A stretch of DNA of 22,684 nt from a virus. The position numbers were made by a program, and so were the translations under genes. Under the pieces are notes generated by a model. It saw nothing but the letters and a program-made list of their open reading frames with translations. It was not told the DNA's origin and did no database searches. How positions within the stretch are numbered: the stretch's first letter is position 1; each line of letters starts with the position of its first letter. The DNA lies in IMG/VR virus record IMGVR_UViG_3300005836_000008, positions 1-22,684 of that record, one strand, 5' to 3'. Below are positions 10,321 through 22,123 of the stretch, piece by piece.

Positions 10321-12171
10321 CTACTCCGCCGCCTCTCTCCTGAATTCGTCCGCTCCTCGAGGCGCGACATCGCGCGGCGCAAAATTCGCCGTCACCAAAG
10401 CCTCGGCCATGACCGGCGACACCGAGTTGCCAACCATGCGGCCCTGCTGGTCGCCGGTGATCCGCTTCATGTTGGTTTTTCCGGTGCGCTTCTCCACACG
10501 CGGCACGTCCAGCTCGATGATGTAGCCAGGCGGGAAGCCTTGCGCGTTGAAGCGCTCGCGCGCGGTCAGCATTCGCATGCCAATATCGACGATCTGATAC
10601 TCGATGCCCTGCACCGTAACGATGCCGATGCGGTCGGTTGTATCGATCGTCGGCAGCGGCGCCGCCGGCGTTGCGAGCTGGCCTCCGTCGCGATGGTATT
10701 TTATCAGGAACGCCCGCACCTCGGCAATGTGCTTGCCCTGTGCCGTGATTGTCGGCACCGGAGCCTCGATCGCCGAGGCGCGGCGATCGCTGCCCTTAAG
10801 TGTCATCAAGCCGGCTGACACCACGGCGTTGTGATCCTGCGCCGTAATCGTCGAGACAGGTTCGGGCATAGGCGAGCCCGGCCGCTGGCCGGCATCGCCG
10901 TAGTGCTTCGCCAGGAACGCGGCGCAAAGGCTAATGCGATTGCCTTGCGTCGTTATCGTGCGGGCCGGCTCATCGGCTCCGGCGGCCGGCTTCTCGCCGT
11001 GATTGTTCTGCACCAGCACGGGCGCAATCAGCGACGCTTCATTGCCGGCCGGCACCACCACCGGCATCGGTTCCTCGATCGAGCGTGTGCGCGGCTCTTG
11101 GCCTGCCCGCTCGCCGTAGCGCGGCACCATGAACGGCGTCACCAGGCCGAGCGGCGAAGCGCCGCCAGGATGATCGTCGGAATGCGCCGAGGTGATGGTG
11201 TGCAAAGGCTCGCGCGCGTCGTGGCCGGTCGATTTACCGTTGAACTTGGTCACAAATGGCGTCACCAGCGCGTGCTCGCCGCGGTGCGCCGTTGTTTGTG
11301 TGCGCAGCGGCTCCTTTATTCCGTTCACCCGATCATCGCGCGCGTGCGTAATCGGCACGATGAAAGGCTCGGCCGCGTTGATGACGTAGCGATCTATGCC
11401 CTTGGCAATGCGCGCCATCGTGTTCGGTTTGAGCGGCCGGATGACGCGGATACGGTGATCCTGCCAGAGTTGTGCGACTTCGGCCGGCGTCAGGAAGATC
11501 GACGGGCAAGGCAGTGACCAGTCGATGATCTCTGCCGCGGCGCGCCAAGGCAGCAATCGCCCCGACTTGACCGCCTCGGATTTCGGATCGCCATGCGTCG
11601 GCGCCGGCCAAACGATCGGCAGGCCGTCGCGCCTGGCGATCAGGAATAGCCGTTTGCGGATGGTCGGCGCGCCATAGTCGCACGCGCGCAGCTCGCGATG
11701 CTCGACCTGGTAGCCGAGCGACTTGAGCTTTCCGACCCAACGTCGGAACGTGAAGCCTTTGCGATCGGGGCAAGGCCGGCCGTTCGCGCCGAGCGGTCCC
11801 CAGGTCGCAAATTCCTCGACGTTTTCCAGCATGATGACGCGCGGCTGCACCAGCCTTGCCCAACGCACCACCACCCAGGCCAGATCGCGGATTTTCTTTT
11901 CGACCGTCTTGCCGCCTTTGGCTTTGGAAAAATGCTTGCAATCCGGCGAGGCCCACAGCAGCCCGACCGGGCGGCCGGCGCAAGCCTCACGCGGATCAAC
12001 CTTCCAGATGTCATTGGAAAGGTGCCGCGTTGTTGGATGGTTTGCCAGATGCATCGCCAGCGCGATCGCATCGTGATTGATCGCAATGTCGGGCGCGCGA
12101 CCAACAGCCAATTCGATACCGGCAGATGCTCCGCCGCCGCCGGCAAAACTATCGACGATGATTTCGTGCAT
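10321..12171 (-). CDS. C5 cytosine DNA methyltransferase with a repeat-built recognition region (616 aa)
   Basis: The product transfers a methyl group from S-adenosylmethionine to cytosine C5 in DNA. Motif I is 'SFAGGGGASAGIE' (8-20), motif IV 'SPDCKHFS' (75-82) with catalytic Cys78, motif VI 'ENVEE' (116-120), motif VIII 'IRKRLFLIAR' (171-180), and motifs IX/X 'MLTARERFNAQGFP' (534-547) and 'GNSVSP' (581-586). Between VIII and IX the protein carries about seven degenerate repeats of the form 'EP..TITA...H..lv..fl.ky.g' (residues 286-515). The gene is last in the early operon, seven bases after the helicase stop, with a GGAGAGGTAAGG leader. It could protect phage DNA from host restriction. 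No partner nuclease is visible, so it is an orphan methylase. Confidence 0.92.
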   Translation of the reverse strand: MHEIIVDSFAGGGGASAGIELAVGRAPDIAINHDAIALAMHLANHPTTRHLSNDIWKVDPREACAGRPVGLLWASPDCKHFSKAKGGKTVEKKIRDLAWVVVRWARLVQPRVIMLENVEEFATWGPLGANGRPCPDRKGFTFRRWVGKLKSLGYQVEHRELRACDYGAPTIRKRLFLIARRDGLPIVWPAPTHGDPKSEAVKSGRLLPWRAAAEIIDWSLPCPSIFLTPAEVAQLWQDHRIRVIRPLKPNTMARIAKGIDRYVINAAEPFIVPITHARDDRVNGIKEPLRTQTTAHRGEHALVTPFVTKFNGKSTGHDAREPLHTITSAHSDDHPGGASPLGLVTPFMVPRYGERAGQEPRTRSIEEPMPVVVPAGNEASLIAPVLVQNNHGEKPAAGADEPARTITTQGNRISLCAAFLAKHYGDAGQRPGSPMPEPVSTITAQDHNAVVSAGLMTLKGSDRRASAIEAPVPTITAQGKHIAEVRAFLIKYHRDGGQLATPAAPLPTIDTTDRIGIVTVQGIEYQIVDIGMRMLTARERFNAQGFPPGYIIELDVPRVEKRTGKTNMKRITGDQQGRMVGNSVSPVMAEALVTANFAPRDVAPRGADEFRREAAE

Positions 12172-16347: not shown

Positions 16348-16542
16348 TCACCTGTTGAAGGCGCGGCGGAGCGCGTCGCCGTCGCTGCGGGAATTATCGA
16401 CCACCAGCAGCGGCTTGGTGCGCGGCGGCTGGCAGAAGCGGGCATGATGGAAGCCGCTGATTTCGCGGTCGGCCTGCTCGGCGGCGTCGAGCGTGAAGCG
16501 CTCGATGCGGATCACCGGCAGATAGATGACCTCGGCGCTCAT
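16348..16542 (-). CDS. Hypothetical protein (64 aa)
   Basis: Start ATG at 16542 overlaps the stop of the gene upstream (ATGA) and the stop is five bases before the two-HTH gene. The product begins 'MSAEVIYLPVIRIERFTLDA' and ends 'SDGDALRRAFNR'. It is a compact, mixed-charge protein with no recognised domain. The longer open frame upstream is a shadow. Confidence 0.6.
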   Translation of the reverse strand: MSAEVIYLPVIRIERFTLDAAEQADREISGFHHARFCQPPRTKPLLVVDNSRSDGDALRRAFNR

Positions 16543-17389: not shown

Positions 17390-17628
17390 CGTAGCCTCCA
17401 TGCCGGGTTGCCGTTCGGGTCGAGGGGCGCGCCGGCCGTGGCTAATCGGACATGCGCGCCCCTCTCCGTTCGCGCCCCTGCGACGGAGGGCGAACTGGAA
17501 TTTTTAAGATCGGCGCCGCGCGCGGCGTTGACCGCCGCCGGGCCGAGGATCAGCCAGCACGCCAGCAGGGCAAACGTCAGACTGGCGACGATCCAGCGGT
17601 AGGTCTGGCGCATGTCCGGCTCGATCAT
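17323..17628 (-). CDS. Membrane-anchored or secreted small protein (101 aa)
   Basis: The ATG at 17628 overlaps the Cro-like gene's stop (ATGA). After 'MIEPDMRQTYRWIV' comes a hydrophobic helix 'ASLTFALLACWLILGPAAVN', probably a signal anchor, followed by a Ser/Arg/Ala-rich tail lacking order. Its 3' part lies over the start of the 59-aa gene in another frame, an unusually long overlap, so its true end or the neighbour's start may differ. A membrane-acting early protein (for example superinfection exclusion) is conceivable but not shown. Confidence 0.5.
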   Translation of the reverse strand: MIEPDMRQTYRWIVASLTFALLACWLILGPAAVNAARGADLKNSSSPSVAGARTERGAHVRLATAGAPLDPNGNPAWRLRCKNLKPSARASADRGAPTRCR

Positions 17629-17912
17629 GCCGCGCTCCGCTGCTGGAGCCGGTCGGGGCACATGGCGACGGTCGCCGCCTCCAACGCCGCTTGCGGATGC
17701 AGCCCGGCCAGCCGGCGCGCCTGTTGCTCCTCGGCCTTGAGCAAGGCGGCCTGCAACTTTTCAAGGGTGGAGTGGCGCGGATCGGAGCTGTCGCTCAGCA
17801 CCAGCCGCACGGTATTGACGTTAACGCTGGCTAATCTGGCGAATTCGCCCCGTTTGAGGCCCAATTTGGCGGCCCGTTCCGCGATCTGCTGTGGACCCAT
17901 CGCCCAACCCAT
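17625..17912 (-). CDS. Cro-like early regulator (95 aa)
   Basis: The product has an XRE/Cro-type HTH: 'LKRGEFARLASVNVNTVRLV' (19-38) followed by 'STLEKLQAALLKAEE'. It is first in the minus-strand early operon and divergent from the repressor, the usual place of Cro. A perfect 16-bp operator ends eight bases before its ATG (17920-17935), so binding there would directly block it. The start could also be the ATG at 17900 since neither has a clear ribosome site. The likely role is to turn down the repressor and set the lytic course. Confidence 0.75.
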   Translation of the reverse strand: MGWAMGPQQIAERAAKLGLKRGEFARLASVNVNTVRLVLSDSSDPRHSTLEKLQAALLKAEEQQARRLAGLHPQAALEAATVAMCPDRLQQRSAA

Positions 17913-17919
17913 GATTTAA

Positions 17920-17935
17920 TCTGCAAGTATGCAGA
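17920..17935. promoter_or_regulatory. Operator O1 (perfect 16-bp palindromic core) at the repressor/Cro divergent region
   Basis: TCTGCAAGTATGCAGA has perfect 6-bp arms around a 4-base centre, and its exact reverse complement recurs at 18760-18775. With the site in the gap between divergent Cro-like and CI-like genes, it is the expected operator for one or both proteins. Some flanking bases match too (AATCTGC next to the second site is ATTCTGC). Confidence 0.85.
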
Positions 17936-18041
17936 CGAAAATCTGATTTGCGGGCGTTGGTCAACAACAAAGTTTACGGTCATGTACAGCGTGAGCCTAC
18001 TGCATATTGCGCCTCCGGTGCTGATACCCGGAGAGCGCGCA

Positions 18042-18692
18042 GTGACAACGATTTCCCGATCGATTGCAAAGAAACAGCTTCAAGACCGGCAGCGCGCCTG
18101 GCTGCAACAGGTCATCGACGCCACCAAGATGAAGCCAGCACAGATTGCGCGCGAGGCCGGCGTTAGCGATACCACTTTGTCTCGACTTTTAAGCAACCCT
18201 GAGTATTCAGGCACCCTTTCAGAGGTTACCATTGAGCGCATAAAAACTGCGTATGGAATACCGGGGCCGGCGGAGGGGCAACAAAAGTTAGGGAACTCCT
18301 TGATCCTTGCGGAAGGTGAAAGACTTGATCCGGTTGCGCTTGACCAGAAAATTGCCAAGGCCATAGAAGCCCTCAGCAGCAACGATAAAACCATCGAAGT
18401 CTGGCGGCTGCGGTCGAGCGCGCTGGAAGGCGACGGCTATTTTCCCGGCGACTTGCTGCTGGTCGAGATCGGCGCGCTGCCGCGGCCGCATGACGTGATC
18501 TGCGCCATGGTGACGGAATGGGCGCGCGGCGGCGCCGAGACGATTTTCCGAAAATTCGACCCGCCGTTCTTAACCACGTCCGCCCCGCGTGGCGTCGGCG
18601 GCAAACCCATGCTGATCGACAACGACCGCGTAAAGCTGACCGGCGTGGTGGTGACCAGCATCCGCGACCATCGCCTCTCGGCGGCCTCCTGA
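18042..18692 (+). CDS. CI-like phage repressor (XRE HTH plus S24/LexA-like domain, 216 aa)
   Basis: The N-terminal HTH 'KPAQIAREAGVSDTTLSRLL' (31-50) is clear. The C-terminal domain resembles peptidase S24: 'LRSSALEGDGYFPGDLLLVE' (123-142) and a Lys (171) in 'IFRKFDPPF', the places where the Ser-Lys cleavage dyad would be, though the usual 'GxSM' is 'SSAL'. I start at GTG 18042, which has GGAGAG seven bases upstream; the frame is open to ATG 17982 with no ribosome site. It should hold the lysogenic state by binding the two operators on either side of its gene. Codon use and base composition in the first half look less GC-rich than the neighbours. Confidence 0.85.
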   Translation: MTTISRSIAKKQLQDRQRAWLQQVIDATKMKPAQIAREAGVSDTTLSRLLSNPEYSGTLSEVTIERIKTAYGIPGPAEGQQKLGNSLILAEGERLDPVALDQKIAKAIEALSSNDKTIEVWRLRSSALEGDGYFPGDLLLVEIGALPRPHDVICAMVTEWARGGAETIFRKFDPPFLTTSAPRGVGGKPMLIDNDRVKLTGVVVTSIRDHRLSAAS

Positions 18693-18730
18693 ACGCCGCC
18701 ACGGGCCTGCCCACATCGCCGCTAAGCCAT

Positions 18731-18746
18731 TGTTTCACGTGAAACA
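18731..18746. promoter_or_regulatory. parS: Perfect parS site (ParB-binding palindrome)
   Basis: TGTTTCACGTGAAACA is the full 16-bp bacterial parS consensus, bound by ParB in most phyla including alphaproteobacteria. Matches to the full 16 bases are very unlikely by chance in a window of this size. No parA or parB gene is visible here. The site is 13 bases from operator O2 and upstream of the integration operon. Confidence 0.92.
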
Positions 18747-18759
18747 AAACAGAAACATT

Positions 18760-18787
18760 TCTGCATACTTGCAGATTTAATTCTGCA
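18760..18787. promoter_or_regulatory. Operator O2 plus half-site upstream of the integration operon
   Basis: TCTGCATACTTGCAGA (18760-18775) is the exact reverse complement of O1. A further half-site TCTGCA lies at 18782-18787. O2 covers the -35 of the predicted promoter, so CI binding would repress the xis/int operon. Confidence 0.85.
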
Positions 18788-18796
18788 TAGTATGAT
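18769..18796 (+). promoter_or_regulatory. Predicted sigma70-type promoter of the integration operon
   Basis: TTGCAG (18769-18774), a 16-base spacer and TATGAT (18791-18796) fit a sigma70 promoter. The start would fall about 35 bases before the GTG of the first gene (18838). It overlaps operator O2 and the half-site. Confidence 0.6.
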
Positions 18797-18837
18797 CCGC
18801 GTGTCGGCATCAGCCGATACAACTGCGGAGGTCGATC

Positions 18838-19239
18838 GTGGGGCGGGCGTCGCCGAGGAAACCGAAACAGACGTCGGCGTCCGCCCTGATCGAGCGCCAA
18901 GCGCTGGCGCTGACGCCGCCCGATATCTACGCCCTGCAACACATCGTCGCCTGTTCGACGTTGTACCGCTTCGGCGCGATGTACCGGCTCGACCGGCCCG
19001 ATGGCAGTGGCGAGCTCCATCCCATATCCGCCGCTGCGGTCTGCCGTCTGGACGCCTTGCGGCTGGTGCGCGTTGTCTTTGGCGCCCGCGTGTTCGGCTC
19101 TCCCAGCTACGTGCATGAAACCGAAAAAGGCTTCGCCGTGGCGCGGCTGTTCGGCTGGCCTACGGTCTGGCGCGAGTGGAACGAAATGCCAGTCGCCGCG
19201 CTCGGCGAGCGCATGGCGAAGGTGGCCGCCCGTGGCTAG
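18838..19239 (+). CDS. Hypothetical protein, first gene of the integration operon (133 aa)
   Basis: Start GTG at 18838 is backed by GGAGG six bases upstream. The product has 'LTPPDIYALQHIVACSTLYR' near residue 25-44, then 'VCRLDALRLVRVVFGARVFG', ending in an Ala-rich helix. The mix of short helices and a beta pair is compatible with a winged-helix DNA-binding protein, but I do not see a clear HTH. The gene is under the promoter repressed by CI, and overlaps the next gene by eight bases. Confidence 0.6.
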   Translation: MGRASPRKPKQTSASALIERQALALTPPDIYALQHIVACSTLYRFGAMYRLDRPDGSGELHPISAAAVCRLDALRLVRVVFGARVFGSPSYVHETEKGFAVARLFGWPTVWREWNEMPVAALGERMAKVAARG

Positions 19240-19525
19240 CCGACCTTACTATGCCGCCAAACAGATCGCCGGTTTTCTCGGTGTCTCGATGGACAGTTTC
19301 TACAAGCGCCCCGTGCGCGAGCGCTATTACACCGATCCCGACATCGCGCTGCCGCGGCCCTATTGCGCCAAGCCGCTGCGCTTCGACCGCTCGGCCATCG
19401 ACGCCTGGCGCGGCCGCTTTCATCCAGCGCTGGCCGCCATGGCAGCGCCGGCCAACGACCGCGACGCCGCGCCGCCGGGCCGCGACGCGTTGGCCCGTCA
19501 CTACGCCGCCCGGCGCGGCGCCTAG
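19232..19525 (+). CDS. Excisionase-like HTH protein (97 aa)
   Basis: The start is GTG 19232, overlapping the previous stop by eight bases. The N-terminal half reads 'YYAAKQIAGFLGVSMDSFYK' then 'RPYCAKPLRFDRSAIDAWRG', the layout of AlpA/MerR-type winged helix proteins (helix-turn-helix, wing, then 'R.d..aid.W'), as in many phage excisionases. It lies just upstream of int. It probably bends attachment-site DNA and tips Int towards excision, or regulates the operon. Confidence 0.72.
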   Translation: MASRPYYAAKQIAGFLGVSMDSFYKRPVRERYYTDPDIALPRPYCAKPLRFDRSAIDAWRGRFHPALAAMAAPANDRDAAPPGRDALARHYAARRGA

Positions 19526-19576: not shown

Positions 19577-20902
19577 ATGGCCGATATCAATCTGCCGTAC
19601 ATCGATTGGCGTGAGGGGCGGCCGCGTTTTGTCGCCGGCCCCGGCGCGCGCAAGCTCGGCTTCAAGGGCGAGGACTTAAAGCACGCCGATGGCCGCTGGC
19701 TGTCGCTGGAGGAAACCGCGGCATGGGCGCAGACGCGCCAACAAGCGATCGGCGCGGCACGCGGCAGCGGCAAGAAGATCAAGCGCCCATCGCCGCCGCG
19801 CGGTCACAGCGTCGCCGATCTGCTGGAGGATTTTCTCGCCGCCTTGCAGCGCGGCGAGCCCGGCCCCAACGGCCAGCCGCTTTCGATCGACGGCATCCGC
19901 AGCTATCGCAAGGCCGCCAACGCCATCATTTATTTGCCGGAAAGCCGCGCCGACGCCAAGGCGCGCCGCGCCAAGGAGCGCGCCGCAAAATTGCTCGGCC
20001 TCGATCCGCAGGAGCGCGAGTGCGAGCCGTTCGGCCGCGCCGACATCGCCGCCATCGGCAAGGTCGAGCTCAACGAATTTTTTCTCACCGCCAAGCGCGA
20101 GCGCGGCCACCACATGGCCTTGAGCATGGTGTCGGTTTTTTCCGCCGCCTATACGTGGGGCGGCACCGCGCCGCATTGGCGGCTCGGCGCCAACCCGCGC
20201 AAGGAAATTAAATTCGCCCGGCCCGATGGCCGCATCGTCATCTACAGCGCCGAAGAATTCGCCGCCATGGTCGCGGCCGCCGATGCCTGCGGCCGTCACT
20301 CGATCGGCGACGGATTATTTCTCGGCATCGACACCGGCCAGCGCCAGAAGGACCGCTTGCGGCTCGCCGACGAAGGCATGATCGACGGCCGCCGCCGCTT
20401 CCGCCAGTCGAAAACCAAGATGGTGGTCGAGATCAAGGAGACGCGCCGGCTAGCGCAACGGCTGGCCGAGGCCAAGGCGCGCACCGCCGCGCTCAAACTT
20501 AAATTCGGCACGCGCGATATGGAAATCGTGCTCGATGAAACCACCGGCCGGCCTTACGACAGCACTACCTATCGCCACGTTTTTGCCGAGGTGCGGGCGC
20601 TGGCCTGCAAGGGCAACAATGAGCTCGGCAAGGAACCTAAATTGCCGCCGTGTCCGTCACTGCAATTCACCGATGAGCGCGACGGCAAGATCAAGTTCAA
20701 GACCGATCAGGACTTGCGCGATACCTGCGTCACAAGGCTGTACCGCGCCGGCAACGACATCATGGCGATTTGCGATATCACCGGCCACAGCTACAAGTCG
20801 GCGCAGACCATCATCGATCACTATCTGGCGCGCGACCGCGTGCGCGCCGACGTGGCGATCGATAAACTGGAGGCGTGGATGGCGAAGGAGCAGGCGGGAT
20901 GA
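19577..20902 (+). CDS. int: Tyrosine integrase (441 aa)
   Basis: The recombinase catalyses site-specific exchange between attP and attB. Catalytic residues are R256 in 'DTGQRQKDRL', K279 in 'QSKTK', R381 in 'DQDLRDTCV', H404 in 'ITGHS', and nucleophile Y416 in 'IIDHYLAR'. The first conserved His of box II is Gln (H-x-x-R reads QDLR), as in many rhizobial integrases. The N-terminal 58 residues form a small domain ('WREGRPRFVAG', 'GFKGEDLKHADGRW') that is shared with the downstream GIY-YIG-like protein. The core-binding part spans about 75-230. It reads towards the tRNA-Lys core at 21987-22032, about 1.1 kb downstream. Confidence 0.93.
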   Translation: MADINLPYIDWREGRPRFVAGPGARKLGFKGEDLKHADGRWLSLEETAAWAQTRQQAIGAARGSGKKIKRPSPPRGHSVADLLEDFLAALQRGEPGPNGQPLSIDGIRSYRKAANAIIYLPESRADAKARRAKERAAKLLGLDPQERECEPFGRADIAAIGKVELNEFFLTAKRERGHHMALSMVSVFSAAYTWGGTAPHWRLGANPRKEIKFARPDGRIVIYSAEEFAAMVAAADACGRHSIGDGLFLGIDTGQRQKDRLRLADEGMIDGRRRFRQSKTKMVVEIKETRRLAQRLAEAKARTAALKLKFGTRDMEIVLDETTGRPYDSTTYRHVFAEVRALACKGNNELGKEPKLPPCPSLQFTDERDGKIKFKTDQDLRDTCVTRLYRAGNDIMAICDITGHSYKSAQTIIDHYLARDRVRADVAIDKLEAWMAKEQAG

Positions 20903-21145: not shown

Positions 21146-21364
21146 ATGTCCGTCGTCCAATTTCCCCAACGTGAAAAGCAACTCATTGACCTCGATGTAG
21201 CGGTCATCAACATCACCGCGATCGTCGATGTTCTTAACATGGTCGATCAGGTCGAGCCCGAAAAACACCGCAAGCAATGGCGTAATGGCATCGTCTGGCT
21301 GCACGGCTGTCTTGCGGTGAGCGTGGAGCGCATAGCGCAGCTTGTCGAGAGCCTACCCCGGTGA
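21146..21364 (+). CDS. Small helical protein (72 aa)
   Basis: Start ATG 21146 has GAGGAG six bases upstream. The product is mostly helical: 'LDVAVINITAIVDVLNMVDQ' and 'WRNGIVWLHGCLAVSVERIA'. It ends in a GTGA overlap with the GIY-YIG-like gene, so the two are coupled and may act together. It follows the structured leader. No family recognised. Confidence 0.65.
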   Translation: MSVVQFPQREKQLIDLDVAVINITAIVDVLNMVDQVEPEKHRKQWRNGIVWLHGCLAVSVERIAQLVESLPR

Positions 21365-21909
21365 AGCATCCGGTGAAATACATCGTCTGGCGCGGGGGAC
21401 GGCCCAGGTTTGTGCCGGGGCTGCACCTGCGCCGGCGAGGGTTTCGCGGCGAGAATTTAATCCATCCAAACGGAGAGTGGTTCACCGCCGAGGAGGCCGA
21501 GCACTACTCGGCGCGGTTACAACAGGAAATTAGGCGCGGCCGCGGCAAGGCGCTTGCAGAAGTGCTCCGTCAAGAAAAACCGGATATCTCTTATCCGCCG
21601 CAGCCGCGGCAGCGCCGTTCACAGCGGTCATCATCAGGTCGAGTAGGCTATGTCTATTTTTTAAAATGCGGCACGGTGATGAAGATAGGCTTTTCATCCA
21701 ATCCGTTTCAGCGCCTCCGCGCCCTCAATACGGGACTGGCCAATGAGATAGATTTTTGCATAACCCGCATCGGCACCATGAAAGACGAGAAAAAATTGCA
21801 TGCGCGACTGCTCAAACACCGCTTCAAGGGAGAATGGTTTTTTTATAACAGCGAGGTCGAAGAGGTGATGATGGTCTATTTTTACGAGCTACTTTACCCG
21901 CAAAAATAG
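21361..21909 (+). CDS. GIY-YIG-like (T5orf172/MUG113 type) nuclease with an integrase N-terminal domain (182 aa)
   Basis: The C-terminal part has the GIY-YIG-superfamily layout: 'GYVYFLKCGTVMKIGFSSNP' (96-115), R118 in 'RLRALNTG', then 'EKKLHARLLKHRF' and 'GEWF' (157-160) with Glu158 in the catalytic-acid position. The N-terminal residues 7-57 align without gaps to residues 8-58 of the integrase with about half identical (shared W-R-x-G-R-P-R-F-V, G-F-x-G-E-x-L-x-H, G-x-W). The two domains are joined by a basic, Pro/Arg/Ser-rich linker (60-92). The gene starts at GTG 21361 in a GTGA overlap. It lies next to attP, so a role in attachment-site cleavage, exclusion or excision is possible. Activity is inferred. 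Confidence 0.78.
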   Translation: MKHPVKYIVWRGGRPRFVPGLHLRRRGFRGENLIHPNGEWFTAEEAEHYSARLQQEIRRGRGKALAEVLRQEKPDISYPPQPRQRRSQRSSSGRVGYVYFLKCGTVMKIGFSSNPFQRLRALNTGLANEIDFCITRIGTMKDEKKLHARLLKHRFKGEWFFYNSEVEEVMMVYFYELLYPQK

Positions 21910-21912
21910 TCG

Positions 21913-22123
21913 CCAGTCTCAAAATCACCAGTCTCATGACGTTTTTTTGTTCTCCTAAGAAGCCATTGTTATTGTGATGATTTTGCTGGTGGGCGCACCA
22001 GGGCTCGAACCTGGGACCCGCTGATTAAGAGTTAACGCGAGATCGGCCGCGCTCAAAGGCTTGCCAGTCTCATACCGCTGCTTTCCGCGGCTTTCCGCAG
22101 CGTCAGTCTCACAGCCAGTCTCA
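21913..22123. repeat. Five CAGTCTCA repeats flanking the attP core (arm-type sites)
   Basis: CCAGTCTCA occurs at 21913-21921, 21928-21936, 22064-22072 and 22115-22123, with TCAGTCTCA at 22103-22111. All are in the same direction, two on the integrase side and three on the far side of the tRNA-derived core. That layout is the one expected for integrase arm-binding sites. An integrase or the GIY-YIG-like protein could bind them. Confidence 0.75.
21987..22032 (-). other. attP core: 3' half of a tRNA-Lys(CTT) gene
   Basis: On the minus strand the sequence runs from the anticodon loop CTCTTAA through the anticodon 3' stem, variable loop, T-arm (GGTTCGAGCC) and acceptor to CCA. Left of it is integrase-side phage DNA; right of it, the D-arm and the 5' acceptor are absent and phage-like DNA continues. 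Phages often carry the tRNA 3' end so the gene is rebuilt on integration. With phage DNA on both sides it is attP rather than attL or attR. Confidence 0.85.

Follow-up and report, generated by a model that had tools for sequence, protein, structure and literature searches.

An orphan host-type parS site before the integration operon of temperate phages, a candidate loading site for host ParB

The switch region and the integration module

The DNA analysed here (the window) is the whole of IMG/VR record IMGVR_UViG_3300005836_000008, 22,684 bases in length, and represents a temperate phage whose head-tail adaptor is of the podovirus type. Its switch region comprises a small, divergent cro-like HTH gene on the minus strand (17625-17912; a weak HTH_3 match, with homologues in L179, L269 and other related loci) and a plus-strand repressor gene (17982-18692, start codon uncertain) with a LacI-type HTH (PF00356, 1.7e-6) and homologues upstream of the integrase in relatives; used alone as a query, the repressor gave no relatives in IMG/VR. 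Between these two genes lies operator O1 (TCTGCAAGTATGCAGA, 17920-17935, no strand assigned), identified by sequence comparison. Behind the repressor gene follow operator O2 (TCTGCATACTTGCAGA, 18760-18775, likewise without strand), which recurs in the related locus L270 with the same core and the same spacing to the palindrome described below, and a partial operator-like repeat, O3 (CTGCATAGTATG, 18783-18794, plus strand), whose 8-nt spacing to O2 is also found in L270. A putative promoter of the integration (int) operon, TTGCAG-16-TATGAT (18769-18796, plus strand), was read by eye; its -35 element is weak and a consensus promoter scan of the window did not report it. The operon itself, all on the plus strand, consists of two genes of unassigned function, delineated by ORF and profile searches (18838-19239, 133 aa; 19236-19525, 96 aa), and a tyrosine integrase gene (19577-20902), assigned by profile search, through which the relatives were found. 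The predicted transcript of the gap at 18693-18838 folds unusually well (z -5.55), with a strong hairpin before the first operon gene.

Within this gap, 38 bp past the repressor stop codon (18692) and 13 bp from O2, lies a perfect 16-bp palindrome, TGTTTCACGTGAAACA (18731-18746, no strand), which is the exact consensus of chromosomal parS and the only match to it in the record, even when three mismatches are allowed. The assignment as parS rests on the exact match together with the conserved position in relatives. Thus, the two structural claims of the preliminary description, namely that a full-consensus, exactly palindromic parS is present and that it sits between the repressor gene and the integration operon 13 bp from O2, are confirmed by the coordinates. 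Its remark that no parAB genes are visible is borne out for ParB: no match to the ParB profile PF02195, and so no cognate ParB in cis of the kind that defines plasmid and phage ParABS systems, was found in the window (G000) or in any of five related phage records (G001-G004 and G007; 36.6-40.8 kb).

To the right of the integrase, the attP core coincides with the 3' end of a tRNA gene (21987-22032, no strand; Lys according to the anticodon-loop sequence) whose identity to Bradyrhizobium plasmid DNA reaches 97.8%, so that a Bradyrhizobium-like host is likely. A repeat search detected five plus-strand CAGTCTCA repeats around this core (21914-22123), which are probable Int arm-type sites. Because attP is intact and flanked on both sides by phage ORFs, the record shows the non-integrated form; at 22.7 kb, it is shorter than the related phage records, and therefore part of the genome may be missing. 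Searches of isolate phages with the DNA and the integrase of the window gave no match. A T5orf172/MUG113 gene lies beside attP (21361-21909) and a C5 cytosine methylase gene at 10321-12171; in L185, from the phage of L183, GTTTCACGTGGAAC (1202-1215) immediately adjoins the tRNA end of attP.

The site in related loci

Is the palindrome kept at the same place in related phages, as the preliminary description proposed to check? Integrase searches of IMG/VR and Hyphomicrobiales genomes yielded 60 loci, the window included, in which the 14-bp core GTTTCACGTGAAAC was sought within 3.4 kb upstream of each integrase, with at most one mismatch allowed for a parS call. Of the 60 loci, 12 have such a site in the gap that precedes the int operon. 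Dinucleotide shuffles (60 rounds) produced no parS upstream of the integrase, and among 60 permuted palindromes one matched in a single locus and the remainder in none; the placement of parS is therefore not a matter of chance. The core is perfect in the window and L161, takes the CACATG form in L160 and the CATGTG form in L254, L255, L256, L261 and L266, and reads GTTTCACGTGAAAT in L210 and L211 and GCTTCACGTGAAAC in L270 and L271. The site of L174, GTTTCATATGAAAC, has two mismatches and thus falls outside the 12; like all 12 called sites, it occupies the gap that leads up to the int operon.

The neighborhood of the site varies. It lies close behind the repressor gene in the window, L161, L210, L211, L254, L255, L256, L266 and L174; the interval is longer in L160, and other sequence intervenes in L261, L270 and L271. 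Relative to promoters read by eye, three arrangements can be distinguished: parS 22-24 nt upstream of the -35 element (the window, L255, L256, L261, L266, L270 and L271, with L174 at 19 nt), 40 nt upstream of it (L160 and L161), and directly 3' of the -10 element (L210, L211 and L254). In L270 and L271, the site is kept even though the compared upstream flank differs.

Another candidate, AGTCTCACGTGAGACT (L214, L220 and L261), was not accepted as parS: it can be read as two AGTCTCA units placed head to head, which resemble the CAGTCTCA repeats at the attP of the window, and in L214 and L220 it lies just past the integrase. Furthermore, the repressor-int gaps of L182 (3685-3800), L183 (after 3113) and L158 (after 4030) hold repeated palindromes of other sequence (AAACGTGATCACGTTT with a near copy, three copies of CTACCGGTAGC and four of the TGTCCGGACA type), which may be bound by other factors of host or phage.

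Gain, loss and independence from the repressor

Mapped on the integrase tree, the presence of parS requires 7 changes compared with 11.9 for shuffled labels, and so the expectation of a conserved place holds in part: the site recurs before the int operon and has been gained and lost along the tree. The sister group of L270 and L271 (support 99/97), L268 and L269, retains a repressor homologue, the cro-like gene, O1 and O2 and lacks parS; L122/L164 has an O2-like operator and no parS in its 40 kb. Given these operators without parS, we have to conclude that the switch does not need it. Conversely, the repressors of L210 and L211 show no similarity to that of the window, and in L210 and L254 the repressor is an HTH_3/S24 protein. 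Because parS persists beside unrelated repressors and is absent where the repressor and its operators remain (L268 and L269), the possibility that it is the repressor's operator was ruled out.

Orphan parS across viral sequences

In IMG/VR, the exact parS 16-mer was found in at least 120 stretches, against 33 in a full scan for the control palindrome TGTTTCAGCTGAAACA. When the 16-mer was extended by GS on one side, there were still at least 120 stretches, although GS is present in only 13 of the first 120 matches listed for the 16-mer; the total is therefore roughly 1,000 or more, an estimate that includes redundancy and possible host contamination. Of the 146 sites in viral contigs, 56 lie outside ORFs of 60 aa, compared with none of 33 for the control palindrome. 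It could be argued that the site in our phages is a functionless sequence that arose by chance or hitch-hiked with its neighbors, given its gains and losses on the integrase tree and its dispensability for the switch. We regard this as very improbable in view of its presence in 12 of 60 loci where none is expected and of its frequent location outside ORFs.

No ParB match was found in 47 of 50 parS-bearing records, including records of 201, 122 and 97 kb; these 50 were picked by hand with a preference for intergenic-looking sites, and many are fragments too short for an absence to mean much. The survey of flanking genes counted nine terminase large subunits among the flanking proteins and placed 11 of the 50 sites in convergent gaps. 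A perfect core also occurs in a named isolate, Pelagibacter phage HTVC027P, where it occupies a non-coding gap at 16413. As an aside, several IMG/VR phages (L027, L042, L101, L119 and others) carry a perfect parS directly beside the gene for the terminase large subunit, and in HTVC027P, which is related to this group, parS lies near terS. A short-motif BLAST of parS against the phage collection gave no match, the query probably being too short. Taken together, orphan parS looks widespread in phages. The literature searched, whose coverage leaves aside preprints and most subscription papers, yielded no description of a host-type orphan parS in phages.

Host ParB and the origin clusters

In nine lysogen genomes, perfect parS cores cluster within ~17 kb and adjoin a canonical ParB gene, located ~2-5 kb from the origin parS sites in each; in G243, this protein matches Caulobacter ParB (6t1f, E 6e-65). 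For the prophages related to the window, the site thus matches the parS of the host's own ParB. In seven of the nine lysogens, no perfect or one-mismatch core other than the prophage site lies outside the origin cluster, and in eight there is at most one other such copy: G574 has one further core, in a second phage-like region (L498), and the exception, G492, has several scattered one-mismatch sites. The additional core of G574 is perfect and lies between the primase and GpA terminase genes (L498:7196). Aureimonas ureilytica (G405) is unusual in that nine perfect cores are scattered across several of its contigs, as opposed to the clusters in the other genomes.

The CATGTG variant of several phages is also present among the clustered origin sites of G347 and G492, suggesting that this form is accepted by host ParB. 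The CATGTG core of several phage sites still counts against a reading in which host ParB binds them, as in P. aeruginosa an intact CACGTG core matters for affinity (PMC4368675). Could the palindrome then be the operator of another phage or host regulator, with the consensus GTTTCAYRTGAAAC and a coincidental likeness to parS? The use of GTTTCATGTGAAAC by relatives and of GTTTCATATGAAAC by L174 would fit, and so would the sites of L210, L211 and L254, which lie at the expected transcription start, a normal position for an operator. Nevertheless, such an operator appears unlikely to us: the core is exactly that of the host parS in the window and L161, the CATGTG form is itself found within origin clusters, the near-lack of other copies away from the origin cluster in eight of the nine lysogens is unlike the distribution of a regulator's targets, and the site is kept beside unrelated repressors and missing from sisters that have the repressor.

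The suggestion that the site may serve to place phage DNA near the host origin finds no support for the integrated form. In the three lysogens with the origin cluster and the prophage on one contig (G574, G651 and G595), the two are 2.0-2.25 Mb apart, and in two of them the prophage is near the terminus; the closeness to oriC that is usual for parS is thus not a property of the phage-borne site. An ori-distal parS can disturb segregation (PMC7083940). The cores are imperfect in all nine resident prophages and perfect in two of three phage-record sites, which hints that a strong ectopic parS is costly, the numbers being small and the pattern noticed post hoc.

A hypothesis on borrowed ParB

How does the phage site compare with known systems? 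It shares with the chromosomal ParABS systems the identical 16-bp consensus, the same core lying beside ParB in the hosts of related prophages, and differs in being a single copy, in a promoter region, with no ParB in cis and far from the origin when integrated. P1 and the mycobacterial extrachromosomal prophages (PMC7157519) likewise have a centromere site on a temperate phage, and they carry genes for partition proteins of their own along with the cognate sites. The phage of the window, by contrast, has a host-type site, an integrase and attP, and no ParB that we could find. The orphan ParB-CTPase proteins encoded on prophages (PMC12704722) are another case of phages exploiting the ParB system, and ours is the reverse, an orphan site without the protein.

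In our estimation, the phage parS is likely to be a functional loading site for host ParB, and the related phages, which keep it in place without encoding ParB, probably borrow the host's protein. Binding, loading and any effect on int transcription are inferred here from sequence comparison. The published behavior of ParB makes such effects plausible: it extends up to 16 kb to either side of one parS (PMC7083940), DNA-bound proteins are roadblocks to it (PMC8367383), and, in P. aeruginosa, spreading from parS silences promoters nearby on a test plasmid (PMC4368675), an artificial construct with excess ParB, whereas the phage parS is a natural, candidate ParB site. Under the proposed scenario, host ParB would load with CTP at the phage parS, and the clamps, unless blocked by repressor on O2, would slide into the adjacent int promoter and toward the repressor gene; ParB would thereby dampen or time transcription of the int operon, any gain from positioning of the genome by ParB and SMC accompanying this local effect. 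That the orphan site is kept at the int-operon promoter chiefly for such a local benefit is a proposal to which we give nearly even weight. It draws on the conserved place of parS at the int operon, and against it count the three arrangements of parS and promoter, which do not fit one classic operator mechanism, the weak promoter call in the window and the gains and losses of the site on the tree.

A different benefit is conceivable, although we lean against it as the main one: host ParB, ParA and SMC at parS would hold or segregate the non-integrated genome together with the host origin, and the place before the int operon would be an inherited non-coding niche. A single parS with parAB stabilized an unstable plasmid in P. 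aeruginosa (PMC4368675), the window, with its intact attP, is a non-integrated form, and the many unrelated phage contexts of orphan parS are better explained by a positional role than by control of a promoter. Yet, with an integrase and a tRNA attP, long-term episomal life is not expected, and the site stays at the int promoter and does not drift elsewhere. Between local control of the int operon and positioning or segregation of the incoming genome, the local reading is slightly favored for the phages studied here. In other phage contexts, the occurrence of orphan parS favors a general positional or segregational gain, and its location in convergent gaps and beside terminase genes means that promoter control cannot be the general use. 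Combining the two, we tentatively put forward, somewhat short of believing it, that many unrelated phages, temperate and probably lytic, may recruit host ParB and SMC through orphan parS sites and that, in the Hyphomicrobiales family, the site has been wired into the int-operon promoter, linking the integration decision to a segregation protein.

Nature provides test pairs for this hypothesis in lysogens with and without the site, L270 and L271 versus L268 and L269. Should phages indeed load host ParB onto their genomes, the machinery that segregates the bacterial chromosome would count among the host factors of viruses, and lysogeny could be coupled to the cell cycle. Integration would then also introduce an ectopic parS into the chromosome, and possibly SMC loading with it.
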